From Ascidia mentula (lineage: Eukaryota; Chordata; Ascidiacea; Phlebobranchia; Ascidiidae): a stretch of 64,000 nucleotides of DNA. Shown piece by piece: positions 9,122 to 49,588 of the stretch. Below the pieces are notes generated by a model that had not been told where the DNA came from, searched no databases, and saw only the letters and a list, made by a program, of their open reading frames with translations. The stretch covers positions 4,962,501 through 5,026,500 of the forward strand of contig OX387200.1 of NCBI GenBank assembly GCA_947561715.1. Reading direction: 5' to 3'. Every line of letters starts with the position of its first letter. Positions within the stretch are counted from its first letter, which is position 1. The position numbers and the translations under genes are program-made.

Positions 9122-11595
9122 TTACCTGAAGTTCATATACGCGTCAAACGACTGAATGTACTCAAGAACAACCTGGTAGCAGTAATCGAACAAGTTGACG
9201 TCTCCAACCATTCCAGTGCGACAATCGCGGAGGTCTTTCACTTCTCTCATCACATCCACTCTGTTCTCACTTCTCAGCCGTTCGAGAGAGTTGGCGACGG
9301 CGCAGAAAACTCCTGTGCGACTCGATCCGTCACTGCACACAAAAAGTTTGCTGGACATAATGTACACAAACAAGCAGCATAACGTAGCGTTGTTGTGTTG
9401 CAAGGCCTTATGATAGTAAAAATGTGTGCCAGTGCGAAGACCAATTTATGAATTTCAAAACTATGAATTTAGGTCTTTGTGAATCCCTTAGTTTTACAGC
9501 GAAACATGATGCTCGCGGGCCCTCGGGCCCTCTGGAATGGGACCTGGACGCCTATTACGTATATCTAACCAGCAATGAAGAAGGGCAATAAATTTCTTTT
9601 CCCGCGCCTCGACTGCATCTTTTTGGAAACTCCACACTTTTTGGATGACTTCAAGTAAGACGGTGGGATCGGGAGGTTGCAGGTCGGACGTCCAATCGTT
9701 CAAAACAATCTGTTTCACCCGGTGAGGTGTCTGACAACATACCAAGCCTTTTAGATTGGACGAGAAGTTTGAATATCTGGCCGAACCCGAAAAATCGCCA
9801 ACACGCAGCTATCGGAAGAATTATTTTAAACAGTTCGCTGAATTTAAATCACGTTTTTTTTATTCAAAACATATAAAAAAAACTAATCCTAACTTATGGA
9901 ATAAATTCCAGTTGACCAAAAATACCTGTGTTCCTCAACATTATTTTAACACATTGTTTTGTTATTTTTAAGGATTAATCTTGCTGGCACTTGTATATTA
10001 TTTCTCACTTTTACGATTTTAAAGAGTTTTTTCATAAAAGAAAAACACAACAGACATCTAGGAGATATGCGCCAACCAAACCAAGGGTAACCGAATGTTC
10101 AAAACGATCTGTGTTAAACATACCGTCGTTTTATCTCTCTTAACTTCCAGGTCCCTTTCATAGTAACCAGTGTGATTGTGAACCGCCCGCGTCATGACCA
10201 GAAATTCACGGAGGCAAACTGAATCGTTCAATCCCGCCCAGTAAGTGTCCTTGGAAGAAACCTTAAAGTTGGGAATTGGGTTATTAGGTCGATTAAACTA
10301 TCGGTCGATTCAAACCCTTTCTAACTAAACACAGCCACAAAACCTTTAAGGTTTGAATGTTTACAAGCAGTTACCTGATCGAGCATGACGATACATCGGA
10401 TGTGGTTGTCGAACACAGACCTCCAGAAAGTGTTATGGTTGCATTGCGGGGGATTTTGAGCCACCAAGTAGTAAAACCCGTTGTTGTAAGCCTGAAAAAA
10501 TACACAACACTGTTGTCAACCGTACTTACAGTCGTGTGTTTAAATGTACAGAACTTTGTGACTGCAACTACTTATCCGGATATCTGTGTCAATCGAAAAC
10601 CAATTATTGAAGTTCATCCACAAAAATCATACCACAATGATCACACCAGGTCACGTGACGATACAAGCGGTGCCATTGTTATCGATTCCCTTTTTCTTGT
10701 GTTTTTCTTACGTTTTTCCTGCGTTTTAAGTGTTTTATGCGCTTGATGCATTATCGACATAACCCTGAAGAAGTCCGCCGGATGGTGGACGAAACATTGG
10801 TTACAATAAACACCTTAGTTACACTAAGTGACAGAAGAACAATTCCTACACTAATGATAATGATCATGTTCTAACTCAAACGTGTGTCAAATACTTGCTC
10901 GACTGAACTAGTTGATCATCAATATTGTCCTGACAGTTTCGTTGTAAGTTTGTTGATCGAGAACAACATTTGTGAGTATCGCAAATCTTCGACAATCCAA
11001 CCGAAATCACCATTTTTCGACATAACGGGCCCGCAGTATATTGCCACTAGATTTGCTGCACCGACATCGCGCGCGCAAGAAATGGGCCAGGTTGCTAAGT
11101 CACTCACCCGCATACTTGAGGCATTCAAATAAGGGGGTTCCCCGTCGCTTGGAAGCGTTCCAACGTACGCGAGGTTGTGGTCGTCTTCAAAAACGAAGCG
11201 TTGTTATACGTTAGATGTTGGTGTTTCACATAAGTGGGTTTCGCCGAACCCGATAGGTAAAATATGAAGAGTTCCATAAGCACTATATATGGTTTTAAAC
11301 AAAAACTGCTGAAAATGTCTATTAACTGCCTTGTCAACCTGACGAACATTGCAGGGTATAGCGGACAAATAAATATGTGCAATACTGCGTAAGATCATTG
11401 GGCGTTTTAGTGAAGACAACAGTGATATAACCAAGCCAACAGACCAATCACCCACATGGTAGTATTGAAGGGACGGTGTTGAAGTTCGTATTAATTGGAT
11501 TTTGTCCGGCTATTGTTCCGTTCAACAAGGGCGGAATTAGTGAGATGACATCAAACTGCAGCTTGATTCTTGACACGTGATATGGTCGTTCGACC
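9122..11595 (-). CDS. Copy A: phosphatase domain D2 exons
   Basis: Six exons: 11456-11595, 11108-11184, 10375-10491, 10124-10261, 9570-9730 and 9122-9332. Family landmarks are SILPYDD (for NxLPYD), [10 protein letters not shown] (for DYINASF), [16 protein letters not shown] (for FWRM...VVML), [10 protein letters not shown] where a WPD loop belongs, and ALLHC joined across an intron to CDGSSRTG. The P-loop Cys and Arg are kept. The WPD aspartate is Ser, and the Q-loop (normally VQT) reads VGD. The product ends SFDAYMNFR-stop, close to the usual SFDHYAT end of D2 domains. The stop codon overlaps a possible donor (AG|GTAAAG), so a further exon cannot be excluded. Confidence 0.85.
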
Positions 11596-14500
11596 CTAGA
11601 TGGCGACAGAGAGTTAAAGTTGAACATGTGTATGTCAGTTATTTTGGAAAAACTGCCAAGTCAACTATACATATGATAAGAATAGCGAAATGGCAATTTT
11701 GCTGAAACCAAAACAACTCAAAGTGATAACTTATTCAAGCGAAATGTGGTGCAAAGTGGCGAACCTGCAGTGAACGACCATGGGAGCAGTGTTTTCGGCA
11801 TGGGCTTCCACCGCTAGCTTATGAAGACGGAATATGGCAGAGGTGGTGTGGGGAATGCCGTGGTCGGGCCAACCCAGGTACTGGAATTGTCTGATCTCCA
11901 TCGGGTTCTGCAATGTAATGTATTAACGGTGCCCTTCCTGAAAGTGTGTGTATCTTGCCAGGTATAGTGAGTCACCTGTAAACGTGGCGTGCTGACCAGG
12001 AATGTCCGGCATATGACGTTACCATGGCTTGACTCGTGCGTCGTTCTCACGCTACAGCATCCAAACTGGGTCTCATTACCTATGTGAGGCCAGTACTGGT
12101 GGCATTTTACCTAGCAAGGAAACAACAGATCATCCACGATATTCGCTTTGGGAAGAACTTACATTGAAAATATTTTGATCCAACTATAGGTAAAAATATG
12201 GGTAAAGTGCGGTTGTGATTTTGTTCCATTAACGCTAAAAACTAGAAGTGCGATGCTGCATTCAAAAGGAGAGTTTGGTGTTTTGTACAAAATTTGTGCT
12301 ACAAATGTTCAAATGACTGTTCGTGCACATGTGTACAATATGAAGGAGTAGCGTGAAACTGTATTTGCTATTTTTAATCGAACAAAAGTCAAATGTTTTT
12401 AAAATAGTTTTTATATAGTACCTTGAAGTCCTCTAGTAGCTGGGTAAGCATCACTATCACACCGCAGTTATTTTCCGTCACCATCCGCCAGAAGTCGCTG
12501 CAGGTCGCCGGTAACGGGCCTTGCGTTGCGATGAACTTTTTCGGCCGCGAATAACCCTGCGAAAATGGCGTGATCGGGGTTACGCGAGGTCATTGCAGGT
12601 TTGACAGTAGTTCCTTACGTTAATGTAGGAAGCGTTTATGTAATCGCCCATCTCCTGGGTGAATGCTTTTTGCAGTGGTACTCTTGCATCGTCGCCTGAA
12701 AAATCACATAACTTTAGTATTAGTATTTTTTGACCACACCGGGATTTGAATCCAGGATATCCTGGCCACGAATCCCGATCAGGTTTTCTTATAGGTATAT
12801 AGGTCGGACACTTGACCAATGCTGCCAATTTACCATTGGATCGGAATTGTGGTCGGATTTGCAAGTGGTGCTTCTTGTGGATAGAAACAAAGACCTTCAA
12901 GGAACTTAAAGTAAAAGTTACAACAATGCCTTGCTGGAAACCTCACTTCCGCAACGTTACCGAAAATAATCCCATGACAAGGCAAAAATTCATAGAATAA
13001 TAGATCACTGCCAGTCAGTTGCCTTGGATATTCAAAAGCTTATCAGCCATTCTTAGTTGAACGACAATAGAAAACCTTTAGAGGAACCCAGCAAAAAACT
13101 ATGACTCATAATAGAAAGAATGATGTGAAAGGACACGATCGCCACCAATCAATATGACACAATGAAACGAAAATTGACTCATTTGAGGAAGTACAGATTA
13201 AGGTAAGCACCGAAAGCTAAACAACTCACTTGGTAGAGTGTCATGAAAACGGTTCTTGCCTTGCGCCGTCGCTCTTTTGCCATAGTCGGTACTCACCCGG
13301 GACTTCCCCTCCAAGCTAGAGAGTACTTCCTGTTTGCATTATATTAAGCGTTTAGGTTCGCAATTCAATCACAAATAACAGGAGCATTTTTATTTGTCAT
13401 GTACATCATGCAGGCCTTACTTCGAATTCGCGACGAAATTGTTGATCCTCGTCAGATCTCTTTTGGTTGAAAGTGGCCAAAAGGGACTCTGCGTCGATCG
13501 CGAACTCACTTAGTCGTACTGAATCTTCTTAACATCAAAACACAAAGGGATAAGCAAGGTTATCATCGTCACAGACCAAACAAATAAGCACGCTGCATTT
13601 TGATGCAGAAATTAGATTTTGTTCAGAAACATTGGCCAATATCGAAGGATTTTGTGGGGTGTGAATTAATAAATCCACTTCAGCCTAACAAAAACTACCA
13701 ATTTTTCTGTACATTTCGCCGCTACACCATTGCTCTTGGCAACACATATAATTACGTGTATTCTTCGAGTATACCTGTGTGTAATAACGGCATCTCATGA
13801 TTCTCTACGGCATCTTGGCGTCGCAGCAGTTGTTTTCTAGATAATTTAGATAATGAAATAAAACAAATGTTCTGGGGTAGCAGAAGATAGTACAAAGACG
13901 TAAGTTCATTCGTATTGTGCCAGAATGTAAACCTCCAACATCTGGTGTGAAAGTATTACAAAAAATAAATCTTGACATTTTAAACCATCAAAACAATTCT
14001 CATTTCTGAAACGGGTTTTCACAGTTAGGTAAGGGAGTAATACCTTCTGCACATTATGACGATGACAACTATGCCGACGAGAATGATAACAACAACTGCC
14101 ACAACAGCGTATTGAAGTGCACTTGAACCCGAAGGATGACGTTGAGAATCGGCACCTTCACAAAGCAATTTATGTGTGATAGTTTATTTTTAAAGATATA
14201 CATCAATAAAGATGCAACAGCAAGTTTGGTTTGAAAAAAATTACTACATGTTCTAAAGCATTTGCGAAAATAATTTTTTAGGCTCACGCACTTTTGGGTG
14301 CCAGGAAAAGAAATATTCAGAAAATATCTTCAAATTATACAAGTCCCTGTCAGTTGCTGGGTACCAGGCTAGGTGAGGCCTATTGGGTCACTACAGTGGC
14401 CCTGTCTGTGCTAATAAGTACAATAAGTTTGCACTCAATAAAGTACCTGTGCACTGGGGAGCTGTTGGACTCCATCCAGAACTCACACACCAGGAACTTG

Positions 14501-24085: not shown

Positions 24086-26899
24086 TTACCTGAAGTTCAT
24101 ATACGCGTCAAACGACTGAATGTACTCAAGAACAACCTGGTAGCAGTAATCGAACAAGTTGACGTCTCCAACCATTCCAGTGCGACAATCGCGGAGGTCT
24201 TTCACTTCTCTCATCACATCCACTCTGTTCTCACTTCTCAGCCGTTCGAGAGAGTTGGCGACGGCGCAGAAAACTCCTGTGCGACTCGATCCGTCACTGC
24301 ACACAAAAAGTTTGCTGGACATAATGTACACAAACAAGCAGTATAACGTAGCGTTGTTGTGTTGCAAGGCCTTATGATAGTAAAAATGTGTGCCAGTGCG
24401 AAGACCAATTTATGAATTTCAAAACTATGAATTTAAGTCTTTGTGAATCCCTGGAATGGGACCTGGACGCCTATTACGTATATCTAACCAGCAATGAAGA
24501 AGGGCAATAAATTTCTTTTCCCGCGCCTCGACTGCATCTTTTTGGAAACTCCACACTTTTTGGATGACTTCAAGTAAGACGGTGGGATCGGGAGGTTGCA
24601 GGTCGGACGTCCAATCGTTCAAAACAATCTGTTTCACCAGGTGAGGTGTCTGACAACATACCAAGCCTTTTAGATTGGACGAGAAGTTTGAATATCTGGC
24701 CGAACCCGAAAAATTGCCAAAACTCAGCTATCAGAAGAATTATTTTAAACAGTTTGTTGAATTTAAATCACGTTTTTTTTTTATTCAAACAATAAAAAAA
24801 ACTAAAAAACTAATCAACTTATGGAATAAATACCAGTTGACCAAAAAGATCTGTGTTCCTCAATATTATTTTAACACGTTGTTTTGTTATTTTAAAGACT
24901 TAATCTTGCTGGCACTTGTATATTATTTCTCACTTTTACGATTTTAAAGAGTTTTTTCATAACCTGTTACCAGTTTGAGCGCCCTGGATAAGAAAATCAC
25001 AACAGACATCTAGGGGATATGCGCCAACCAAACCAAGGGTAACCGAATGTTTGAAACGATCTGTGTTAAACATACCGTCGTTTTATCTCTCTTAACTTCC
25101 AGGTCCCTTTCATAGTAACCAGTGTGATTGTGAACCGCCCGCGTCATGACCAGAAATTCACGGAGGCAAACTGAATCGTTCAATCCCGCCCAGTAAATGT
25201 CCTTGGAAGAAACCTTAAAGTTGGGAGTTTGGTTATTAGGTCGATTGAACGCTGGAAAACATACATTTCAAGCCATTTTCCTATTTTACATTTAATTTTA
25301 ATTTTGCGAACAAGTTAAAGCAGTGATTCTAACAGCGGGCGGTGGAAAACCAAAGGGCGATTGGCGATAAGATATATTGTCCATTCACATGCAGTTTAGT
25401 CGACACAACTGTTATGCGACTTATAAGATATCAGAATGCATCGATGTTATATTTTACCTTGAGTTTAAATTAAAGTTTAAGAAACTGGCGTGGTTGCATT
25501 GATATTGTCCGCAAAAAAATGGAAAATACATTTGCCATCATGTTTTCGCGGGGGAGGGTGCCCATCAGGAAAAAAAATTAGAAGCTCTGGCTTAAACTAT
25601 CGGTCGATTCAAACCCTTTCTAACTAAACACAGCCACAAAACTTTTAAGGTTTGAATGTTTACAAGCAGTTACCTGATCGAGCATGACGATACATCGGAT
25701 GTGGTTGTCGAACATACACCTCCAGAAAGTGTTATGGTTGCATTGCGGGGGATTTTGAGCCACCATGTAGTAAAACCCGTTGTTGTAAGCCTGAAAAAAT
25801 ACACAACACTGTTGTCAACCGTACTTACAGTCGTGTGTTTAAATGTATAGAATTTTGTGACTGCAACTACTTATCCGGATTCCTGTGGCAATCGAAAACC
25901 AATTATTGAAGTTCATCCACAAAAATCATACCATAATGATCACACCTGGTCACGTGACGATACAAGCGGTGCCATTGTTATCGATTCCCTTTTTCTTGTT
26001 TTTTTCTTACGTTTTTCCTGCGTTTTTAGTGTTTTATGCGCTTGATGCATTATCGTTATGACATAACCCTGAAGAAGTCTCGCCGGATGGTGGACGAAAC
26101 GTTGGTTACAATAAACACCTTAGTTATACAAGTGCCAGAAGAACAATTCCTACACTAATGATAATGATCATGTCCTAACTCAAACGTGTGTCAAATACTT
26201 GCTCGACTGAACTATAGTTGATCATCAATATTGTCCTGACAGTTTCGTTGTAAGTTTGTTGATCGAGAACAACATTTGTGAGTATCGCAAATCTTCGACA
26301 ATCCAACCGAAATCACCATTTTTCGACATAACGGGCCCACAGTATATTGCCACGAGATTTGCTGCACCTACATCGCGCGCAAGAAATGGGCCAGGTTGCT
26401 ACGTCACTCACCCGCATACTCGAGGCATTCAAATAAGGGGGTTCCCCGTCGCTTGGAAGCGTTCCAACGTACGCGAGGTTGTGGTCGTCTTCAAAAACGA
26501 AGCGTTGTTATACGTTAGATGTTGGCGTTTCACATAAGTGGGTTTCGCCGAACCCGATAGGTAAAATATGAAGAGTTCCATAAGCACTATATATCGTTTT
26601 AAACAAAAACTGCTGAAAATGTCTATTAACTGCCTTGTCAACCTGACGAACATTGCAGGGTATAGCGGACAAATAAATATGTGCAATACTGCGTAAGATC
26701 ATTGGGCGTTTTAGTGAAGACAACAGTGATATAACCAAGTCAACAGACCAATCACCCACATGGTAGTATTGAAGGGACGGTGTTGAAGTTCGTATTAATT
26801 GGATTTTGTCCGGCTATTGTTCCGTTCAACAAGGGCGGAATTTGTGAGATGACGTCAAACTGCAGCTTGATTCTTGACACGTGATATGGTCGTTCGACC
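24086..26899 (-). CDS. Copy B: phosphatase domain D2 exons
   Basis: Exons 26760-26899, 26412-26488, 25674-25790, 25076-25213, 24489-24649 and 24086-24296. Same features as copy A D2: [22 protein letters not shown] in place of WPD, HC|CDGSSRTG P-loop with Cys and Arg kept, and VGD in place of the Q-loop VQT. The intron after HC falls at the same codon phase as in D1. Copy B reads FYYMVAQ where copy A has FYYLVAQ. Confidence 0.85.
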
Positions 26900-29800
26900 C
26901 TAGATGGCGACAGAGAGTTAAAGTTGAACGTGTGTATGTCAGTTATTTCGGACTAAATGCTAGTTCTTCATAGAGGGAAATGCACTTTTCTGGAGCACTT
27001 GGTGACAAAAAAACAATTTATTTTAACTGTTTCAGTGGGAAAGCGGCAAACACGCAATAAGTCATATGAGAGTTGTTTTCAAAAGTACAAAAAACGTTGG
27101 CCAACCTGGCGAGGTGGTCGCAGTATTGGGGAAATCCCAAAACATCGACGTCAGTGTTTCCCATTGTGTACAATTCAGTAACTAGTTTGTGCAGGAAAAC
27201 GTATTGTTCCTGCGACCACAAGCAAAAAAACATGTAAGAATGGCAAAACACATCATGAGAAAAGTTTGCCAGCTCACCAGGGTTTGTACAATGTGCGGTC
27301 GGTTGAGCCTCATGTTATACACGACTTTCAAGACGTTGACCATTTTCTCCACTTCCAGCTGTTCTCCAAGAACGTCGAGAGCAATAAATGAACCTGTTTG
27401 TCCCACCCCCCCACTGGAAATACATTGAAATTTATAAATAGGAACTGCGTGCGATATATTGATGATATGAGTAAATTGTTGGTGCTCAATCTGTAGCGGG
27501 CGTAGAACTTGCTTTTTAAATTACCGGTTTTGTGGCTGTTATCACATACTATACCCATACACATAACTATATCATAAAGCCAATTACTAAGAAGAAAATC
27601 TGATCAGGAAAAACTGCCAAGTCAACTATACATATGATAAGAATAGCGAAATGGCAATTTTGCTGAAACCAAAACAACTCAAAGTGATAACTTATTCAAG
27701 CGAAATGTGGTGCAAAGTGGCGAACCTGCAGTGAACGACCATGGGAGCAGTGTTTTCGGCATGGGCTTCCACCGCTAGCTTATGAAGACGGAATATGGCA
27801 GAGGTGGTGTGGGGAATGCCGTGGTCGGGCCAACCCAGGTACTGGAATTGTCTGATCTCCATCGGGTTCTGCAATGTAATGTATTAACGGTGCCCTTCCT
27901 GAAAGTGTGTGTATCTTGCCAGGTATAGTGAGTCACCTGTAAACGTGGCGTGCTGACCAGGAATGTCCGGCATATGACGTTACCATGGCTTGACTCGTGC
28001 GTCGTTCTCACGGTACAGCATCCAAACTGGGTCTCATTACCTATGCGAGGCCAGTACTGGTGGCATTTTACCTAGCAAGGAAACAACAGATCATCCACGC
28101 TATTCGCTTTGGGAAGAAGTTACATTGAAAATTTTTTGATCCAACTATAGGTAAAAATATGGGTAAAGTGCGGTTGTGATTTTGTTCCATTAACGCTGAA
28201 AACTAGAAGTGCGATGCTGCATTCAAAAGGAGAGTTTGGGGTTATGTACAAAATTTGTGCTACAAATGTACAAATGACTGTTCGTGCACATGTGTACATT
28301 ATGAAGGAATAGCGTGAAACTGTATTTGCTATTTTTGATCGAACATAAGTCAAATGTTTTTAAAATAGTTTTTATATAGTACCTTGAAGTCCTCTAGTAG
28401 CTGGGTAAGCATCACTATCACACTGCAGTTATTTTCCGTCACCATCCGCCAGAAGTCGCTGCAGGTCGCAAGTAATGGACCTTGCGTTGCGATGAACTTT
28501 TTCGGCCGCGAATAACCCTGCGAAAATGGCGTGATCGGGGTTACGCGAGGTCATTGCAGGTTTGACAGTAGGTCCTTACGTTAATGTAGGAAGCGTTTAT
28601 GTAATCGCCCATCTCCTGGGTGAAGACTTTTTGCAGTGGTACTCTTGCATCGTCGCCTGAAAAATCACATGACCTTTAGTATTAGTATTTTTTGACCACA
28701 CCAAGATTTGAACCCAGGATATCCTGGCCACGAATCCCGATCAGGTTTTCTTATAGGTATATAGGTCGGACACTTGACCAATGCTGCCAATTTACCATTG
28801 GATCGGAATTGTGGTCGGATTTGCAAGTGGTGCTTCTTGTGGATAGAAACAAAGACCTTTAAGGAACTTAAAGTAAAAGTTACAACAATGCCTTGCTGGA
28901 AACCTCACTTCCGCAACGTTACCGAAAATAATCCCATGAGAAGGCAAAAATTCATAGAATAATAGATCACTGCCAGTCAGTTGCCTTGGATATTCAAAAG
29001 CTTATCAGCCATTCTTAGTTGAACGACAATAGAAAACCTTTAGAGGAACCCAGCAAAAAACTACGACTCATAATAGAAAGAATGATGTGAAAGGACACGA
29101 TCGCCACCAATCAATATGACACAATGAAACGAAAATTGACTCATTTGAGGAAGTACAGATTAAGGTAAGCACCAAAAGCTAAACAACTCACTTGGTAGAG
29201 TGTCATGAAAACGGTTCTTGCCTTGCGCCGTCGCTCTTTTGCCATAGTCGGTACTCACCCGGGACTTCCCCTCCAAGCTAGAGAGTACTTCCTGTTTGCA
29301 TTATATTAAGCGTTTAGGTTCGCAATTCAATCACAAATAACAGGAGCATTTTTATTTGTCATGTACATCATGCAGGCCTTACTTCGAATTCGCGACGAAA
29401 TTGTTGATCCTCGTCAGATCTCTTTTGGTTGAAAGTGGCCAAAAGGGACTCTGCGTCGATCGCGAACTCACTTAGTCGTACTGAATCTTCTTAACATCAA
29501 AACACAAAGGTATAAGCAAGGTTATCATCGTCACAGACCAAACAAATAAGCACGCTGCATTTTGATGCAGAAATTAGATTTTGTTCAGAAACATTGGCCA
29601 ATATCGAAGGATTTTGTGGGGTGTGAATTAATAAATCCACTTCAGCCTAACAAAAACTACCAATTTTTCTGTACATTTCGCCGCTACACCATTGCTCTTG
29701 GAAACACATATAATTACGTGTATTCTTCGAGTATACCTGTGTGTAATAACGGCATCTCATGATTCTCCACGGCATCTTGGCGTCCCAGCAGTTGTTTTCT

Positions 29801-32800
29801 AGATAAATGAAATAATGAAGTAAAACAAATGTTCTGCGGTAGCCTTAGATTGTACAAAGACGTAAGTTCATTCGTATTGTGCCAGAATGTAAACCTCCAA
29901 CATCTGGTGTGAAAGTATTACAAAAAATAAATCTTGACATTTTAAACCATCAAAACAATTCTCATTTCTGAAACGGGTTTTCACAGTTAGGTAAGGGAGT
30001 AATACCTTCTGCACATTATGACGATGACAACTATGCCGACGAGAATGATAACAACAACTGCCACAACAGCGTATTGAAGTGCACTTGAACCCGAAGGATG
30101 ACGTGGAGAATCGGCACCTTTACAAAGCAATTGATGTGTGATAGTTTATATATAAAGATATACATCAATAATGATGCAACAGCAAGTTTGGTTTGAAAAA
30201 AATTACTACATGTTCTAAAGCATTAGCGAAAATAATTTTTTAGGCTCACGCACTTTTGGGTGCCAGGAAAAGAAATATCCAGAAAATATCTTCAAATTAT
30301 ACAAGTCCCTGTCAGTTGCTGGGTACCAGGCTAGGTGAGGCCTATTGGGTCACTACAGTGGCCCTGTCTGTGCTAATAAGTACAATAAGTTTGCACTCAA
30401 TAAAGTACCTGTGCACTGGGGAGCTGTTGGACTCCATCCAGAACTCACACACCAGGAACTTGCTGTTGAACTTAGCTTGTAACCAGGGGAGCATGTAAAG
30501 TTACATTTTGTGTTGTAGTTGCATGAGCTCGAAGTGCATTGTGGATTGCAGGAAACTGATTGCATATTAGTACCAGGTTGCAGTGCTGGACATGTGATTA
30601 CTGTTAATCAAAACAATCCATTCAAAATTTGTCTAGTTGAACACTATCCACAACCATTAGCAGGGTCGCTTACTATCAAGAAAATTAAAAAGTGCTTATT
30701 TATAAGTATACTGTGATAAACGTGTCACAGCAAGCATAAAACAAATAATCAAGACTTTTCCACATTAACGACAAAGAAAACTGTTTGTAAGTGGAATGAA
30801 GGTGTACAGCATTTAACTTGTGAGAATAGTTGGAAACTTTCAAAAAATATTTTGCCAGAAACACACAAACATACGCACTCGCACTTAACACGGGTCGAGA
30901 CAAGGGACTTGGTGTGTAGATGGGTTCGTATATTCCTGGGTTGGAAGTAATAACGTAATACTGGTACATGGAGCCTGCTTGCAAGGGACGGTTCATTCCT
31001 ACGATTACCGCGGGACCGACGTTCCTACGATTCCGCGTTTGGTTCGTGCAACCGCCGAGTGACGAAACCTTTTGAGGATCACAACATGACGTAGAACCGT
31101 CGCCTATTGTGACGTCACTGGCGTTTCCAAACCTGAATATTTGTAAGGATAGATCATACGTGTGGGTAAACGTAATGGTCTGAAATATTGTACAAATGAC
31201 TTTTCGATGACTTTGTAAAAATACTGGTGCACATGGATGTTGGTTTATTGTTATATAGAAGGAAATATTACACTTTTTTCATATTTTTTCGGATATTTAT
31301 TACCGTGATAATTTCGGTTCTGGGTATAAACTATTTAAAGCAGCGAACAAATTTGTTTTCAAGTGTTGTTAATGTTTGGTGTTAATTTTTCCTGATATCC
31401 TTGATAAATAGTTACTCCACAGTCCACAAAGAACATTTAAGCTAGATTTTGCACCACCTAATAGCAGCAGCAATGTAGTGTTGACCTTCTTGCACAGCTT
31501 CGTTGCCTTGTTTCAGTTCGATTATATTAAGCGCTGAACTGTTTCCCGACCCGTTTATGACCTTTAACATCACCAGCAAGATGCAGCTTAAAACAACAAC
31601 AATAGGATTATTTACTTCCCGTACGTTGATTATCATGTATCTTGGCAAAGTATTATAACAATACGATAACTAAAAATATATTATAACTAATGTTCACTAT
31701 TATGTGTGTGTCAACATTTTTTTTGCTAGAAAAGCGCAATTCTGGGTTTGTGCAGTTATAAAAATCAGTGTTCCAATTTCTCCAAATCAGTTGCACGGAA
31801 TCACAACACATTATGTCAAGTGCAAGACGGCTTAAATCCCGTTGCATATTGTTACCTTATTGGTCCGTTTCTTTCACTGACTGAAGGCAACCGAAATTTC
31901 GCTCCGTTTGATAAGGTTGCTGGGGCGGGTGGTAACGACACAGAAGATGGTCCTGTAAAGTAATAGTGACATAAAAACATCCGACTGACTCAGGCGTTTC
32001 GGCGAAGTTGGAGCGTATAACCCTTCAAATGTAGCATAGCTCACAAACCTGAATCAACGCCAAATTCAAGACAAATACAAAGTGTCATACATCTAAAATT
32101 ACTGATTAAATTATATCGATGAAAATTGAAAGAAGTAGCAGATTTATAATAGGAGATAATTAGGAATTAGAAAAAGCAAATGGGAATTTCTCATAATAAG
32201 CGGGAAAAACTGATAATAATGTATAATTTCCAACCCAACTGGTTCCAAGTTTAAATGACAAGAAATTCTTATCAAACATTAAACATGTGTGTTGGTTTAT
32301 AAACTGAAAGTTTGCATAGTTTTCAAAACAGTCATTACAACCTGCAACGTTTGTAACACAGCCTGCAGTGGCGTTTGAAATCGCGGCTGGCACAATTCCC
32401 GTACACTTGTTCAGGGGCACTGCAGCAACTTTCACTAGATATCTAGTGTTAGGAGCCAGGTTCTGGATGTAGTACAGTGAAGTACTCGCATTTATGTTGG
32501 ATATGGTTGATGTTTTTAAGGTTGGAGTAAAAGATGGCCGCTTTTTTCGGAGTGTCTCAGTGTACGTAATCTGTATATAGCACAAAAATACTATTTAATA
32601 AAATTTGGATTAATAAATGTTTTTTGCTATCAAGATTCTTAAATAATCTAACAAAATAAGATGGCATGCAATCCATGAAGTTAAACCAACAGCCGATACT
32701 TAAAGAAAAGGTTCCCACTAAAAAACGGTTGTTTCAAATTTATAGCACTATAGCACAAACCTGAAAGGAAGCGACGTTCGGGTCTGTGACGTAATCAGGC

Positions 32801-35800: not shown

Positions 35801-38800
35801 AACTGTAATTTAAATACAAAAGTGATGGGAATAGTTGAAGACTTACAAATAATTGAGGGTTCTGGCTGTAAGTAATGTTGGAGACCAATTGTGGGTTTTT
35901 GAGCCCATTGTCAAGTGACAATTTACTTGTTTTGTCAATGGATTGAGCACTCGAACATTAATTGTCAAACTTCTACCCCTTTTCACCTCCAAAGACGATT
36001 TTGTATCAATTGTCAAAGTTCCTAATAATGTTGACCGGCAAAGATTGCATGTTGATCGTTTAAAATGCAACAAGTTAAATTTAGCATCAGATTAGAATAA
36101 AACAGTTATAATATTAGCAAATATACAAAATATTGTTAAACAGTATAAAAAAAACATATTTCCAAACATACTTGAAGCACACCGTGGACCAAAGTAGTAA
36201 TTTGTACAAGTACAAGTATAACTGCATCCTAGTGGCTGACAAGTCCCACCATTTGCACATCGATGATTTGTACAACTAGAATATCTAGACACTGCATAGA
36301 AAAACAGTACAATATAAAAACAAAAAACTGCTCCATATTAATGTTTTTTTACACAAAGCGATCTGTGACAGCTCGGATGGATTTTAATAAGAAAAATATA
36401 TTTCGCCTAAACATCATCATCAATTTCTCCAACTTATTCAAATAATTATATCGTTATGGTGTGCGATCGACAGCCTGCGAAGGGCCTTTGGTTTTTGAAC
36501 TGATCCAATTTTTTATTTATTAATTACATTGCTCCACGTTAGTCAAATTCTACCTGTCTTTTCACAAACAAACTTTGCTGTTGTTCCAGTGCAACCATAT
36601 GCATACAGGTCATTGGGTGCTTGTTTGGAAAGCACAGCACATGTATCTCCACTTCTACCCACAACTAAATAAGAAATAACAGATGATAAACCAGGGGTTA
36701 ACGAGCAGCATCATGACATGGCAATGATTTCAAAATTTGTAAACTGGAATGTTACTTCAAAAAAATGTGATGTGCCCTGGATTCTGACATTCACCATCAA
36801 CAATTGCAGGTTTATCTATATTAGTGAAGGAACATAAAAAGTTACCCAAACATATTATACTGTTACACACTACACAACAAATATCAGTAAATGCAAGATA
36901 CACTTGCTTCACACATAAAGTTGTGATTCCCTCGCACAGTATTATCAGTCACAATCAAATATCAGGTAATATTGCAAACCTTCTATAGCAATAAACTTTT
37001 ATAATATTATAACTACATGTGTCACAATACAACCCTTACAATTTGGAAGCAAGGTTTTTCCTTGTAGTAATGTGTTGTCATCCCACTGCCACATTCCAAC
37101 TTTTTTGGACAGACCAATAAAATACCAGGACGTTGTTAACTGGTCTTTAACATTAGAAAATGCAATGCCTGAGGATAAAATTGCCAATCTTGCTCTTTTA
37201 CCATCACAAAAGTTTACAGCTTGGGTGCGTGTTACTTCATTTGGTGATATGAAGTATTGACATGATGAGGAAGCAGGTAGTCTTTTCCAGTTGTCTAAAA
37301 AAAGTTCCATATATTATAATGGTTTTATTCATTTCTTGCAACAAAACTTATTTACAAACAGAATTTGCCCTTATTTGCTTTTTACTGAGTTTTTTTTCCA
37401 AAAACAGGCTCTCGAGAAATCACCACATAAATTACAACAAGAACTCTGATGATAAATTACAAAAACAAAACTTGGTTTTTAGCAACATCACAAAGCTACT
37501 GAATGTAACTGTCAGAGTATTTACAAAACTACAACATGTATTGATTTTAAATTAAAGTGTACAAAAGTTAATAATACATAATTTAGGGTAACGAAGCAGT
37601 CTAATTTTCTTACACAAAGAAAATGTTGAATAATTTTTTGATAATCGGTGTGTAATGAAGCCTGTTGTTAAACAAAGCAGCTAACATATTAAGTAAACTT
37701 AATAAAAGCTAAAATATTTATAAAAGGAAAACAAAACATATTTTCCTTCTAATATATTTTGTACATCTTATATTGTTTATCCATTTTACCAAAAATAAAA
37801 GGTAATACAGGGACTGCTTCATATAGGTTTATTTTGATCGATCCACATTCACTAGGAGAAGATTTAAAACACCTCCAAATACTGGAATAAATATTGCAGT
37901 ATATTTAGCTTTTTTAACCTACTAACAATATATTTGCTGTGGGTTCTTTTTTACTACTGTTATTTAGTATCAGGCACTCTTTATATAGAATGATAACAAT
38001 TTAAAGAAATTCTTTCGTCGGAAACTGTCAGAAACTACCTTTTATGTTATTCAACACATTCTCATCTTTTTTCTAACAGAAATTAGTTTTACACCACAAT
38101 ACAAAATACATCTTACATAAACAACTGGGTATTCCATTACTCCATCCACGTTCTGCACAGGTTGAAGTTTTTGCTCCAAACACTATGTAGTTAGAATCTG
38201 AACAGGAAAATGAACACTTGGTACCAAATGGACATTGTGTACCACTGCATTGTGGGCAATCAGCTACCAATCTGCTTGCTTGAGGTCGTGAACAAGTAAT
38301 TGCTGCAAAAAGTGTAACAATAAAAAAAACGTTTAAAACATCCAAAGAAAACAAATAACATGCAGGTGCAAACACCTAATTAAGCAGCAGTAACTGAACA
38401 CAGAGGGTAACAGGTTGCTTAATTAAAACCATTGCAACCTACATTAAGTCTTATCTATAATTTAGGATTGAGAAGTTGTCTACAAATCTATTTGTTATTG
38501 CACTACATCTGTTTCTCTGTCTGCCATGTGCAACCAATTTTAAAAAAATCTTTGTTACTCCTTAATAACCCCATTCCTAGGTTGAGCAATGCTGTACTAA
38601 TCAAAATGGTGTTTAAATAAGTTTAGAACAGATTTATTTTTGCAACTAGGTCACTTAGTTTGCACTGAAAAAACAAAAAAAATATAAAATACCTGTACAC
38701 TGGGGAGCTGTCCATCCAGAACTTGTACAACGAGAACTTCTTGTTGTTGAACTTAGCTTGTAGCCAGAGGAGCAAGTAAAATCACATCTTGTGCCATAAG

Positions 38801-41800
38801 TACATGAACCATCACTACACTGTGCGTTGCAAGTGATTGGTTGCATATTAACACCTCTCTGAAGTACTGGACATCCTGTAAAAAAGCAAAATCTAAATGT
38901 TTTTTTCACTATCAATATTTTTTATTTGATTGTACTGATTCTCTTTTGAAACAAATCTGTTTATTTCTGCACAACACCTGTTTAAACTTTTTGGTTTTAT
39001 CATGAAAGTCTTTGTAAACCCTTAATAACCCTTCTTTCCAGGTTGAGCAATGCTGTAGTAATCAAAATGGTGCTCAAAAAAGTTTAGAACAGATTTATTT
39101 TTGCAACTTACTCTGTTAGTTTGCACTCAATAAAATACCTGTGCACTGGGGAGCTGTTGAAGGATTCCATCCAGATCTTCCACACCAGGAACTTGTTGTT
39201 GAACTTAGCTTGTAACCAGGGGAGCATGTAAAGTCACATCTTGTGTTGTACTGGCATGAGCTTGAAGTGCATTGTGGATTGCAAGAAACTGATTGCATAT
39301 TAGTGCCACGTTGCAGTACTGGACATGTGATAGCTGTCAATCAAAACAATTTATTAAAAATTTGTTTAGTTGAACATTATCCACAACCAATAGCAGGGTT
39401 GCTTACTATCTAGAAAATTAAAAAGTGCTTGTTTATAAGCATACTGTGGTAAACGTTTTACAGGAAGCTTTGATAATTCAAAACAAAATTTAAAAAAGGT
39501 CTTCTTGTAATGTAATTCATAATAGGCTTTATGACCAATTCGGTCTCATCAGTGTAGATCTGGCGACTTACGACAATCTTGCCAGCTAAATATCCAGGAA
39601 AATACTTTAAATTATACAGTCCCTGTCAGTTTTTGGGTACCAGGCTAGGTGAAGCCTATTGGGTCACTAAAGTGGCCCTGTCTGTTGCTAATAAGTACAG
39701 TAAGTTTGCAGGAAACAGAAATACCTGTACACTGGGGAGCTGTTAGAGTCCATCCAGAACTTGTACAACGAGAACTTCTTGTTGTTGAACTTAGCTTGTA
39801 GCCAGAGGAGCAAGTAAAATCACATCTTGTGCCATAAGTACATGAACCATCACTACACTGTGCGTTGCAAGTGATTGGTTGCATATTAACACCTCTCTGA
39901 AGTACTGGACATCCTGTAAAAAAGCAAAATCTAAATGTTTTTTTCACTATCAATATTTTTTATTTGATTGTACTGATTCTCTTTTGAAACAAATCTGTTT
40001 ATTTCTGCACAACACCTGTTTAAACTTTTTGGTTTTATCATGAAAGTCTTTGTAAACCCTTAATAACCCTTCTTTCCAGGTTGAGCAATGCTGTTGTAAT
40101 CAAAATGGTGCTCAAAAAAGTTTAGAACAGATTTATTTTTGCAACTTACTCTGTTAGTTTGCACTCAATAAAATACCTGTGCACTGGGGAGCTGTTGAAG
40201 GATTCCATCCAGGTCTTCCACACCAGGAACTTGTTGTTGAACTTAGCTTGTAACCAGGGGAGCATGTAAAGTCACATCTTGTGTTGTACTGGCATGAGCT
40301 TGAAGTGCATTGTGGATTGCAAGAAACTGATTGCATATTAGTGCCACGTTGCAGTACTGGACATGTGATAGCTGTCAATCAAAACAATTTATTAAAAATT
40401 TGTTTAGTTGAACATTATCCACAACCAATAGCAGGGTTGCTTACTATCTAGAAAATTAAAAAGTGCTTGTTTATAAGCATACTGTGGTAAACGTTTTACA
40501 GGAAGCTTTGATAATTCAAAACAAAATTTAAAAAAGGTCTTCTTGTAATGTAATTCATAATAGGCTTTATGACCAATTCGGTCTCATCAGTGTAGATCTG
40601 GTGACTTACGACAATCTTGCCAGCTAAATATCCAGGAAAATACTTTAAATTATACAGTCCCTGTCAGTTTTTGGGTACCAGGCTAGGTGAAGCCTATTGG
40701 GTCACTACAGTGGCCCTGTCTGTTGCTAATAAGTACAGTAAGTTTGCAGGAAACAGAAATACCTGTACACTGGGGAGCTGTTAGAGTCCATCCAGAACTT
40801 GTACAACGAGAACTTCTTGTTGTTGAACTTAGCTTGTAGCCAGAGGAGCAAGTAAAATCACATCTTGTGCCATAAGTACATGAACCATCACTACACTGTG
40901 CGTTGCAAGTGATTGGTTGCATATTAACACCTCTCTGAAGTACTGGACATCCTGTAAAAAAGCAAAATCTAAATGTTTTTTTCACTATCAATATTTTTTA
41001 TTTGATTGTACTGATTCTCTTTTGAAACAAATCTGTTTATTTCTGCACAACACCTGTTTAAACTTTTTGGTTTTATCATGAAAGTCTTTGTCAACCCTTA
41101 ATAACCCCTTTTCCCAGATTGAGCAATGCTGTAGTAATCAAAATGTGCTCAAAAAAGTTTAGAACAGATTTATTTTTCCAACTAAGTCAGTTAGTTTGCA
41201 CTCAATAAAATACCTGTGCATTGAGGAGCTTTTTTATCCCATCCAGAACTTACACACCACGAACTTGCTGCTGAACTTAGTTTGGAACCAGGGGAGCATG
41301 TAAAGTCACATCTTGTGTTGTAGTTGCATGAGGTCGGAGTGCATTGTGGATAGCAAGAAACTAATTGCATATTAGTGCCACGTTGCAGTGCTGGACATGT
41401 GATAGCTGTTAATCAAAACAATCCATTAAAAATTTGTCTAGTTGAACATTATCCACAACCATTAGCAGGATCGCTTACTATCAGGAAAATTAAAAAGTGC
41501 TTATTTATAAGCATACTGTGATAAATGTGTTACAGCAAGCTTTGATGACAAAAAAGGTCATCTTGTGTTGTAATTCATAATGAGCTCCTTTGGCAATTTA
41601 CCAAGTGGGTAAATAAAAATCATTTTTAACCAAACAGGTCAACAATAAGAAAATTTTTTGTCTTGTCCAAAGGTAGCGCAGGCCATAAGGGCAAAAAATT
41701 GGTCATTCATGACAATGGCAAAAATTACACTCACAAAAGATATGTCAGCTTGAGCAATGCAGCTTATGATTTATCGATTTAGTCCTTTAAGTACTGGTTT

Positions 41801-44800
41801 GTAACACAAATAATTTCCAAATTAAGTTACGTAACATTGTACAACTTAGCTAAACCTTGAAATTTAGGTAATTTAAAATAAACATGCATTTTGATGCAAT
41901 AGAAAATACATTTTTTAATATTCACGCCTTATCCCACTTGACTTAGACACACCACCTAAACTGTTGATGCTGAGATAGAGTTACGTGATTGTTTGACAAT
42001 ATGTAATCCCATTGTTATTTATGCTTAGTTTTTTTCTTTCCTATAGATATTCAAGGTATTATTTGTCCAAACTTACAATGTTTGAGAATCTTAGAAATGC
42101 CTCAGACAAACATCTGGAATACTTTTGGTTATATTAGGATTGTAAGTTTGCAGCCAAACACCTGTGCACTGGGGAATTGATGAAGACCATCCATAATTTC
42201 CACACTGGGAACTTGTTCGTGAACTTGATAGTTGGTAACCCACTGAACACGAAAATCTACATACTGTCCCATAATCACATTCAACACCATTACATGGCGG
42301 ATTGCAAGAGACAGATTGCATCCTTGTGCTTGGTTGAAGTGCTCGACATGTGATTGCTGTTGAACAAAAAAATTTAAACAACCTTCAGTTGAACCTCGCT
42401 CATAGCTGTAAGGGTTAAATGATTTCTTGAACATTTTTCATACTTTACCTTTATTACACTGGACTTCCACCATGTTAAAGTTTATAAATGTAAATGATCA
42501 TTCAGACAAACTTTAACACCATTATGTTTGTAATATCAATACAGTAAGCTTGCAGCCAAACCACCTGTGCACTGGGGAGGTAATCGAGTCCATGTGGAAC
42601 TTTTACAAACAGAACTTTTTGCTGAGCTTAGTTTGTAACCAGGGGAGCAAGTAAAAGTACAAGTTGTATCATACGAACAAACACCAGCACTACAGGGTAG
42701 GGTCACAAGAGACTGGTTGCATGTTTGTGCATGAAGTATCATAAATTTAGGGGGAAATGAGTTACAAGTGCACTTGAATGGTTACAGCATAATTGAAATG
42801 TTAAATAAATACTGTTCTGTTATAAAGCCTTATCATTGCTATGAATTGCAGGTTTTCAGCAGTAGGCAATTTTGAAATAACTAAAATGGGGTGTACAACC
42901 TGGCCCAAATATCCCCCAAATTTTTTTTATCCTCAACACCAACCAACCAACAACAAAATGGTGCAATTGCTTCATTAACAAATTAAATTTTGGCACAGGT
43001 TTATTTAGCAATATTTCGGACAATATTTTCATTTAAAATTAACAACCCATCCGAACAGTACATTTTCTTTCTATATATTTTTTTGGGAAAATATTGGGCA
43101 CCTACAGTTATTCTTGCTACACTTGCCTACACATTGTGGTTCTGGGCTCCATACTCCATTTGTGCATGTTCTTGTATTGACTGTTATTGTGTAACCAGGC
43201 TGGCAATTGAAGTCACATGTTTGCCCATTGTTGCATTGTGATTCTAGGCACGTACACCCAGGAGATACTTGAAGTGGCGACGACACAGCAGGTGTCATCA
43301 ATGATGGACATACTGGAAGGTGAAAGTATATTCAGATACAAGTGATAAAGAAAATGTCTTACAAATAAAATTGTGTTCTGTTTCTTCAACAAACAAGTAA
43401 ATAATGTTCAAGTGTACAAACATGCAACAAGTTATGCTTGGTTGATGGGAAAATACTAATACACTTGGATACAGAGCTTTTGGCAAAATCCACATATCTG
43501 TCTGTGCAATATACAAAAATTTGTACAAATGTTAATAGTTTGGTTTAAACAGGGTAACCACCTGCTATTTTTGTCATATTGAAATAATACACCAATTTAT
43601 AGTGTTAATATTTGCACAGACTTCTATGTAACATAGGTTCATATATAAATTAAGTTTGCCGAAAACTCTGTGACCCGGTGTTTTATGCTTCATGTCAACA
43701 TTGGGTACGATGTCATAATGTTGCAGGTAAAGATTGCTTAGAATTGCATTGGTATTGAAAGAATTTCTTCTATAACATGAATGCTTTAGTGTGCACTTTC
43801 ATTGCGACAATTTAGTCTTGATGGCATCGAAAGTAACAGTAGATGGACACTAAAATTTGGATATTATTTGCAGGACTTCCAAACCGACCTAGAGAATTGG
43901 GAGAACACATTTATTGATTGAGTGACTTGTTTCATATTCACCCCAGCAAAAGCGTCCCAGCCGTGTAACCGCTAGACGCGATAATTGCCAGATGTTTTTC
44001 TTTGCCTACACAAAAGTTTTTGGTGCCTTATACATATGTTCCTCGATAATTTCAACTTTGTCTATGCTTGAAATTTTCCCAAAAAAGGAGTTACTGCTGC
44101 GCTATACGCGTTTAATCGAACAACTCCTGTCTATAAACCAATGCATTTTCAGACAATCTTTACCTGCAGCATTATGACGTCAGACCCATTGATGACACGG
44201 GGTCAGAACCACGACAGATTAGTGTTTTCTCGAATGATGAGCAAAAAAGAATTCATCTCCGGAATTTCCCCAAAGTGAAAAAGATGTTAATCGCCGACAA
44301 TTGATGTTTAATACGTGTCCCATAGAAATCAGTCACGAAGGCCCATAATAGTATTTTGCAGTGTCGAATATTGTTTAAGACGAATGAATTCACGCATAAA
44401 CAAATTTAAATATTACCGGTACAGTTTCTTATTTTATTTTTAAACATTTTAGCTGGGATTGGAAACTTTTCATTTTCGTTTTTCTTGTAGTAAATACTTC
44501 TTGTATTTATTTTCCCTATGTTTTTGCTTTTAACGTCGCTTGTGTTTAATAAGGGTTGTTGTTTTTTTTTGTGAATAGAATACACGATAGAAGTATTTTA
44601 TGTTCCATGAATATTGTAAACAAATTCGATATTTTAAAATGTTTGCGGTTGATGTATTTAAACTGATTGGCAACAGGCCCAACAAGTAGGACTCTTCTGC
44701 CGTATTTTCTACGTCTGTCAGCTTTAGCAATTAACAATATGAACAAGCTTGTGGCAACACGCATGTTTTCCCTGGCCTAGTTCTGACCACGCCGCATGTT

Positions 44801-46739: not shown

Positions 46740-49588
46740 TTACCTGAAGTTCATATACGCGTCAAACGACTGAATGTACTCAAGAACAACCTGGTAGCAG
46801 TAATCGAACAAGTTGACGTCTCCAACCATTCCAGTGCGACAATCGCGGAGGTCTTTCACTTCTCTCATCACATCCACTCTGTTCTCACTTCTCAGCCGTT
46901 CGAGAGAGTTGGCGACGGCGCAGAAAACTCCTGTGCGACTCGATCCGTCACTGCACACAAAAAGTTTGCTGGACATAATGTACACAAACAAGCAGTATAC
47001 CGTAGCATTGTTGTGTTGCAGGGCCTTATGATAGTAAAAATGTGTGCCAGTGCGAAGACCAATTTATGAATTTCAAAACTATGAATTTAAGTCTTTGTGA
47101 ACCCCTTAGTTTTACAGCGAAAAATGATGCTCGCGGGCCCTCTGGAATGGGACCTGGACGCCTATTACGTATATCTAACCAGCAATGAAGAAGGGCAATA
47201 AATTTCTTTTCCCGCGCCTCGACTGCATCTTTTTGGAAACTCCACACTTTTTGGATGACTTCAAGTAAGACGGTGGGATCGGGAGGTTGCAGGTCGGACG
47301 TCCAATCGTTCAAAACAATCTGTTTCACCCGGTGAGGTGTCTGACAACATACCAAGCCTTTTAGATTGGACGAGAAGTTTGAATATCTGGCCGAACCCGA
47401 AAAATCGCCAACACGCAGCTATCGGAAGAATTATTTCAAACAGTTCGCTAAATTTAAATCACGTTTTTTTTTATTTAAAACATATAAAAAAAACTAATCC
47501 TAACTTATGGAATAAATTCCAGTTGACCAAAAATACCTGTGTTCCTCAACATTATTTTAACACATTGTTTTGTTATTTTTAAGGATTAATTTTGCTGGCA
47601 CTTGTATAATATTTCTCACTTTTACGATTTTAAAGAGTTTTTTCATAACCTGTTACCAGTTTGAGCGCCCTGGATAAGAAAAACACAACAGACATCTAGG
47701 AGATATGCGCCAACCAAACCAAGGGTAACCGAATGTTTGAAACGATCTGTGTTAAACATACCGTCGTTTTATCTCTCTTAACTTCCAGGTCCCTTTCATA
47801 GTAACCAGTGTGATTGTGAACCGCCCGCGTCATGACCAGAAATTCACGGAGGCAAACTGAATCGTTCAATCCCGCCCAGTAAGTGTCCTTGGAAGAAACC
47901 TTAAAGTTGGGAGTTGGGTTATTAGGTCGATTGAACGCTGGAAAACATACATTTCAAGCCATTTTCCTATTTTACATTTAATTTTAATTTTGCGAACAAT
48001 TTAAAGCAGTGATTCTAACAGCGGGCGGTGGAAAACCAAAGGGCGATTGGCGATAATATATATTGTCCGTTCACATGCAGTTTAGTCGACACAACTGTTA
48101 CGCGACTTATAAGTTATCAGAATGCATCGATGTTATATTTTACCTTGAGTTTAAATTAAAGTTTAAGAAACTGGCGTGGTTGCATTGATATTGTCCGCAA
48201 AAAACTGGAAAATACATTTGCCATTATGTTTTCGCGGGGGAGGGTGCCCATCAGGAAAAAAATTAGAAGCTCTGGCTTAAACTATCGGTCGATTCAAACC
48301 ATTTCTAACTAAACACAGCCACAAAACTTTTAAGGTTTGAATGTTTACAAGCAGTTACCTGATCGAGCATGACGATACATCGGATGTGGTTGTCGAACAT
48401 ACACCTCCAGAAAGTGTTATGGTTGCATTGCGGGGGATTTTGAGCCACCATGTAGTAAAACCCGTTGTTGTAAGCCTGAAAAAATACACAACACTGTTGT
48501 CAACCGTACTTACAGTCGTGTGTTTAAATGTACAGAACTTTGTGACTGCAACTACTCATGCGGATTCCTGTGTTAATCGAAAACCAATTATTGAAGTTCA
48601 TCCACAAAAATCATACCATAATGATCACACCTGGTCACGTGACGATACAAGCGGTGCCATTGTTATCGATTCCCTTTTTCTTGTGTTTTTCTTACGTTTT
48701 TCCTGCGTTTTTAGTGATTTATGCGCTTGATGCAATATAGTTATGACATAACCCTTAAGAAGTCTCGCCGGGTGGTGGACGAAACGTTGGTTACAATAAA
48801 CACCTTAGTTATACAAGTGCCAGAAGAACAATTCCTACACTAATGATAATGATCATGTCCTAACTCAAACGTGTGTCAAATACTTGCTCGACTGAACTAT
48901 AGTTGATCATCAATATTGTCCTGACAGTTTCGTTGTAAGTTTGTTGATCGAGAACAACATTTGTGTGTATCGCAAATCTTCGACAATCCAACCGAGATCT
49001 CCATTTTTCGACAAAACGGGCCCACAGTATATTGCCACGAGATTTGCTGCACCGACATCGCGCGCAAGAAATGAGCCAGGTTGCTACGTCACTCACCCGC
49101 ATACTCGAGGCATTCAAATAAGGGGGTTCCCCGTCGCTTGGAAGCCTTCCAACGTACGCGAGGTTGTGGTCGTCTTCAAAAACGAGGCGTTGTTATACGT
49201 TAGTTGTTAGCGTTTGTTAGCGTTAAGTGGGTTTCGCCGAACCCGATAGGTAAAATATGAAGAGTTCCATAAGCACTATATATCGTTTTAAACAAAAACT
49301 GCTGAAAATGTCTATTAACTGCCTTGTCAACCTGACGAACATTGCAGGGTATAGCGGACAAATAAATATGTGCAATACTGCGTAAGATCATTGGGCGTTT
49401 TAGTAAAGACAACAGTGATATAACCAAGCCAACAGACCAATCACCCACATGGTAGTATTGAAGGGACGGTGTTGAAGTTCGTATTAATTGGATTTTGTCC
49501 GGCTATTGTTCCGTTCAACAAGGGCGGAATTTGTGAGATGACGTCAAACTGCAGCTTGATTCTTGACACGTGATATGGTCGTTCGACC
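46740..49588 (-). CDS. Copy C: phosphatase domain D2 exons
   Basis: Exons 49449-49588, 49097-49173, 48359-48475, 47762-47899, 47180-47340 and 46740-46950. The sequence landmarks are unchanged from A and B: DWTSDL for WPD, HC|CDGSSRTG, and the VGD Q-loop. Confidence 0.85.

Follow-up and report, generated by a model that had tools for sequence, protein, structure and literature searches.

Three neighbouring receptor tyrosine phosphatase genes of the ascidian Ascidia mentula, here called copies B, C and D, probably encode non-catalytic receptors in which both phosphatase domains are dead, as they are in PTPRU. The first domain (D1) would have been killed by an arginine to glutamine change in its catalytic loop (P-loop), and the second (D2) would already have been inactive. 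The genes lie in tandem on the minus strand of a 64,000-nucleotide stretch, the window, which covers positions 4962501-5026500 of contig C67 (OX387200.1) in an assembly of 196 Mb in 79 contigs. The transmembrane and cytoplasmic exons of copy A were placed at 9122..14156, those of copy B, as read from translation and splice borders, at 24086..30118, and those of copy C at 46740..52712, all on the minus strand. Copy D occupies 65070-71147 in window numbering, just outside the window. The contig also carries a fifth copy, E, in the opposite (plus) orientation, at a distance of about 178 kb to A and 193 kb to B; its segment L024:2919-9937 was compared with window 24086-31134.

In B, C and D, the P-loop Arg of D1 is replaced by Gln, and the codon is CAA in all three. 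In copy B the loop is split between exon e4 (27726..27868), which contains WPDHGIP and ends in VVHC|, and the P-loop exon e5P (27278..27413), which contains SGGVGQTG, with the middle base of the Gln codon at 27399, followed by IVQT. The corresponding P-loop exon of copy C is at 49966-50101. The other D1 motifs are KNRF, WPDHGIP (WPDHGIPR in C) and IVQT (IIQT in D). Since both domains match Pfam Y_phosphatase (3.1e-71 for D1 and 1.9e-36 for D2, using provisional exon joins), and the same codon is found in three copies, these motifs are not a product of chance; the two matches identify a receptor with tandem phosphatase domains. All the motifs that an earlier note had read in B and C were recovered, on the minus strand and where it had placed them, and the two exon joins that it wished to see confirmed, VVHC|S and LLHC|C, are both in phase 2 with GT-AG borders in the genomic sequence. 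A competent D1, defined by HC-x5-R, WPD and the Q-loop, is lacking in B, C and D because of the Gln, and in A because the exon is absent. Copy E has the complete set, with HCSAGVGRTG, WPD and MVQT.

The truncated D1 of copy A results from a 657-bp deletion that takes away two exons with 240 nt of coding sequence: the D1 P-loop exon, of 136 nt, and the one after it, of 104 nt. The intron that remains has 169 bases, of which 167 agree with copy B when the two flanks of the best breakpoint are taken together. Copy A stays in frame, because the flanking exons end and start in phase 2, and its D2 is as in B. This deletion is a second route to a dead D1 within the cluster.

We then asked how common the Gln is among 80 further P-loop exons of this genome, taken from 151 PTP matches with presumed D2s left out. 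Arg was present in 79 of the 79 readable loops (19/20 and 60/60), some of which may be D2 loops or single domains; the stretch fetched for the remaining one, L042, shows no P-loop. As copy E and all the readable sampled loops keep Arg, Gln is, in the sample examined, derived and confined to B, C and D. The glutamine in D1 is one derived change, and it is the unusual event of this locus.

Does the altered D1 still work? Its Cys, WPD and Q-loop remain, as does a Glu that we take, from the alignment with solved structures and from general knowledge of the family, to be that of the E-loop. It could therefore be supposed that the Gln form keeps a weak or altered phosphatase activity, on another substrate or with slow turnover. 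We regard this as quite improbable: passages of two papers state that the P-loop Arg positions the substrate and stabilises the transition state (PMC11058592; PMC10716126), and every other readable loop of the survey has kept it. Given this role of the Arg, D1 in the three Gln copies is expected to have little or no activity and to bind phosphotyrosine less well. This divides the suggestion of the earlier note that both domains are pseudophosphatases serving as phosphotyrosine readers or scaffolds: for D1, which has lost its Arg and kept a modest constraint (see below), pseudophosphatase is the natural reading, but a role as phosphotyrosine reader is weakened, since the missing Arg is one of the residues that hold the phosphate.

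Activity could also be restored at the level of the transcript. A different P-loop exon bearing Arg, which the earlier note had named as fatal to its proposal, was sought by a six-frame motif search of C67:4874001-5096500 (222.5 kb), which would miss loops outside its motif, and none was found for D1. What the search returned was the Gln loop of D1 three times, the four D2 loops and two hits attributed to chance. Alternatively, A-to-I RNA editing might recode the Gln codon and make the mature protein active, as CAA edited at its first A reads CGA (Arg), and the codon is common to the three copies. Yet no duplex stands out: the three sites score at best 16.0, 16.0 and 16.5, and 120 control exonic A have a median of 14.0, a 90th percentile of 16.5 and a maximum of 21.0. 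For copy C taken alone the score is 17.5, against a 95th percentile of 18.0. Moreover, C-A-A is not known as a context favoured by ADAR. Editing is the least probable of the explanations that we considered, and we give it almost no weight.

Turning to D2, copies A to D all show DWTSDL in place of WPD, HCCDGSSRTG at the P-loop and GMVGD in place of the Q-loop. In copy B these motifs are carried by exons d2e (24489..24649), which has DWTSDL and ends in LLHC|, and d2f (24086..24296), which has CDGSSRTG, GMVGD and the stop codon. The D2 of copy E reads SWRSAS, HCRDGSSRTG (with an inferred join) and GMVGD. Both domains of B, C and D thus carry lesions in catalytic motifs, as would be expected of a doubly inactive, PTPRU-like receptor.

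Twenty other D2 regions of this genome were read by eye. The loop was readable in 16 of them and unreadable in four (L052, L053, L063, L064). Arg is present in 13 (L049, L050, L051, L054, L055, L057, L058, L059, L060, L062, L065, L066, L068), and the three others have Lys (L056, L061) or Leu (L067). Where the exon end could be read, the loop Cys was found in 13 of 14 regions, with Ser in L060. WPD was seen at none of 11 readable positions, and Gln in none of 15 readable Q-loops. The full pattern, with Cys and Arg kept and WPD and Q-loop Gln lost, occurs in 10 of the 20 regions, so that the D2 of these copies follows a pattern common in this genome.

These counts bear on the central idea of the earlier note, namely that each domain retains the elements missing from the other. 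The case looks instead like two separate histories: the D2 pattern recurs in half of the surveyed regions, and copy E has it beside an intact D1. Complementary disabling as a special design was rejected for these two reasons, and the complementarity is mostly a coincidence with an ordinary D2. No support was found for an unusual joint chemistry of the D1-D2 pair. One route by which the two halves could meet is splicing, since e4, with the D1 WPD, and d2f, with the D2 P-loop, have matching intron phases and could be joined in phase in each of A to D. The product would be a chimeric domain with WPD and a P-loop with Cys and Arg, reuniting what D1 and D2 have each lost. Compatible phase alone is no evidence of use, and we hold such splicing to be very improbable.

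The integrity of the genes was assessed on a model of copy B in which 16 exons, all on the minus strand, are joined from the transmembrane exon to the stop. The transmembrane exon (30006..30118) rests on its translation and its conservation in A, C and D; its 5′ edge is provisional, having been set by hand, and is preceded by AA, hence is not a true acceptor. It encodes a hydrophobic stretch (30118-30006), the candidate membrane span, which on this strand is flanked by a sushi exon and D1. The juxtamembrane exon jm1 (29737..29798) has AG/GT borders and is in frame with the transmembrane exon and with jm2 (29383..29489). D1 continues with e1a (29192..29291), containing the phosphotyrosine-loop KNRF, e1 (28580..28656, DYINASYIN), e2 (28383..28517, FIATQGP and DFWRMV) and e3 (27937..28071, KCHQYWP), followed by e4, e5P and e6 (27106..27209). 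D2 is made of d2a (26760..26899), d2b (26412..26488), d2c (25674..25790) and d2d (25076..25213), followed by d2e and d2f. Every intron among the modelled exons is GT-AG, and reading continues without interruption to the stop codon ending at 24086. Copies C and D have the same exons, which align with those of B without any length change, and so does A save for its two missing exons. The exon borders of C and D are also AG/GT, with the acceptor of jm2 in C as the exception. The joined exons contain no frameshift and no premature stop in any of the four copies, with 652 codons in B, C and D and about 571 in A.

Between pairs of A to D, exons diverge by 0.9-2.0% and introns by 2.5-4.3%. Of 1,956 exon columns 54 are variable, against 257 of 4,160 intron columns, exons being about half as variable; pairwise dN/dS ranges from 0.22 to 0.61. 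Is the repetition real? It might be that B and D, or others, are uncollapsed alleles that the assembly has placed in tandem. The intron divergence of 2.5% between B and D is within reach of tunicate heterozygosity, and just outside the window two stretches of sushi exons 15 kb apart (78700-82300 and 93797-97397 in window numbering, L018-L020) differ at 3 of 3,601 bases, which points either to a duplication of very recent date or to a copy introduced by the assembly. However, the order and the divergence of the copies do not suit a simple repeated block, as A lacks two exons and the introns of C are about 4.3% away from all others. We consider it unlikely that alleles explain the copies.

Constraint was measured by counting distinct codon variants. 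The D1 of A to D shows 15 synonymous and 18 nonsynonymous distinct changes, which corresponds to an omega of 0.35 (P 0.0027) at equal rates and of 0.36 (P 0.004) when changes to stops are excluded; these P values, like those below, are uncorrected and come from small counts in copies that are not independent. The introns show a transition bias, with 129 transitions to 127 transversions; once it was allowed for, the constraint weakened, with P moving from 0.003 to 0.013 and omega reaching 0.42. The Gln copies B, C and D alone gave 14 and 17 changes, an omega of 0.43 and a P of 0.017. A D1 devoid of its Arg thus seems to be still modestly constrained, and for this reason A to D look more like maintained pseudophosphatase receptors than like decaying genes. 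The earlier note had asked for dN/dS over the cytoplasmic exons; by this measure D1 seems modestly constrained, and D2 is not significantly different from neutral.

The main rival is precisely decay, in which A to D would be redundant copies losing D1 under relaxed selection and heading to pseudogenes; this is possible, but we find it clearly the less probable outcome. Four neighbours with two kinds of D1 lesion, a point change in B, C and D and an exon deletion in A, count in its favour. The open frames of all four copies, the D1 omega of 0.36-0.42 (P 0.004-0.013), the exons being about half as variable as the introns and the in-frame nature of the deletion in A speak against it. Several further points, besides the nature of the P values, weigh against maintained receptors, and the first two count in favour of decay. 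Neither D2 alone (5 and 10 changes, P 0.21-0.34) nor the transmembrane and juxtamembrane exons (1.5 and 4.5, P 0.43-0.52) depart from neutrality. In copy C, the acceptor dinucleotide of jm2 reads AA at the position used in B, although an acceptor 3 nt further on would keep the frame. For the D1 pairs A-B and A-C significance is not reached (P 0.12 and P 0.19). Gene conversion could have carried the Gln from copy to copy once they had already diverged in part, and could likewise blend their selection histories. The WPD kept in the dead copies may reflect exchange with copy E and not selection, given the mosaic described next. Finally, a decoy is indistinguishable from a scaffold on sequence. 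A non-catalytic role as decoy or scaffold nevertheless appears most likely on our analysis.

The comparison of B with E revealed a mosaic. Five of 14 exons, fn, e2, e4 (WPD), d2c and d2f, are 91-96% identical at the nucleotide level, with pS of 0.07-0.19, and the nine others are 51-75% identical, with pS of 0.44-0.85. The P-loop exon e5P falls in the divergent group (67%, pS 0.79). Similarity extends past the exon at fn and at e1-e2, and ends near the exon edges at e4, d2c and d2f. This looks like exon-sized sequence exchange between the cluster and E, the dead copies and E having the extracellular exon and parts of D2 in common. One could imagine a matched set of active and decoy receptors, in which tandem antagonists share exons with E but leave the P-loop exon unshared, but we think this doubtful. 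Some 1.35 kb past the stop codon of copy E is a second, broken D2 P-loop exon (L025:1291-1479), 87% identical to that of B and with in-frame stops.

Beyond this genome, comparison was made with solved structures. As general background, the D1 of PTPRU keeps its P-loop Arg, and the ectodomain of its R2B subfamily (PTPRK/M/T/U) is of the MAM-Ig-FN3 type. Both PTPRU domains are inactive according to PMC7320164, which reports that the receptor binds substrates of its active relative PTPRK, proposes that it protects them, and finds p120-catenin less phosphorylated when PTPRU is deleted. A like absence of activity from both domains is predicted here for B, C and D. The lesions differ: those of PTPRU-D1 are WPE, a phosphotyrosine loop reading GSRQ and a Thr within the PTP loop (PMC7320164), whereas B, C and D have a single P-loop Arg to Gln change, D1 being otherwise canonical, and stand as tandem copies accompanied by sushi exons. 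The same change is seen in the D2 of CD45 (PTPRC), which reads HCRDGSQQTG in the 1ygr_A alignments. There, however, WPD is also lost (NWSVEQLP) and the substitution is in D2, the D1 loop aligning with Arg. The best PDB match of D1-D2 is PTPRS (4bpc_A, 8e-106), and D2 of copy B best matches PTPRA (6uzt_A, 4.9e-43) and CD45 (1.1e-41), with scores that span both domains of each chain. In the alignments shown, LAR/PTPRS and PTPRA/PTPRE differ from the copies in having D1 loops with Arg and D2s with WPE and VQT. The D2 of PTPRK offers a parallel for an inactive domain that recruits a substrate, Afadin, but there the substrate is brought in so that the active receptor can dephosphorylate it, rather than to be protected (PMC9640194).

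We infer from sequence the loss of activity, expression, ligand binding and the decoy or scaffold role. In the model that we favour, the sushi-bearing ectodomain would take a ligand, D2 and the remaining D1 surface would hold substrates or adaptors, and the receptor would shield its bound partners from active sisters such as copy E, or compete with them. The ectodomain is partly modelled. Sushi exons were found upstream of the copies, together with Ig matches that are all below threshold. In copy B the sushi (CCP) domain nearest the membrane is at 30410..30592 (Pfam Sushi 4.8e-06), and a conserved exon at 30880..31134, without Pfam match and 96% identical to copy E at the nucleotide level, is probably extracellular. 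Further upstream, an array of sushi exons at 38121..43310 probably belongs to the copy B ectodomain. All three are on the minus strand. Elsewhere in the window, 22039-23017 is bordered by 26-nt inverted repeats, 92% complementary, 927 nt apart and starting with TAGGGGAGACCGGGGATA. It looks like a small DNA transposon, and its exact 17-base end was absent from the 128 loci fetched.

The genome as a whole contains at least 211 PTP domain matches, counted exon by exon. They often stand in long tandem arrays on contigs C2, C72, C71 and C73, for example at C2:4.18-4.34 Mb, C2:5.98-6.32 Mb, C72:5.33-5.53 Mb and C72:16.9-17.4 Mb. Neither such a receptor expansion in tunicates nor a receptor with a D1 P-loop Arg to Gln change was met in the literature searched, which comprised, for most searches, the top of the results and few subscription papers. 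The locus offers a natural experiment, in which closely related receptors with and without the P-loop Arg are found in one genome. If the dead copies are expressed decoys, pseudophosphatase receptors would have arisen here by a route unlike that of PTPRU.

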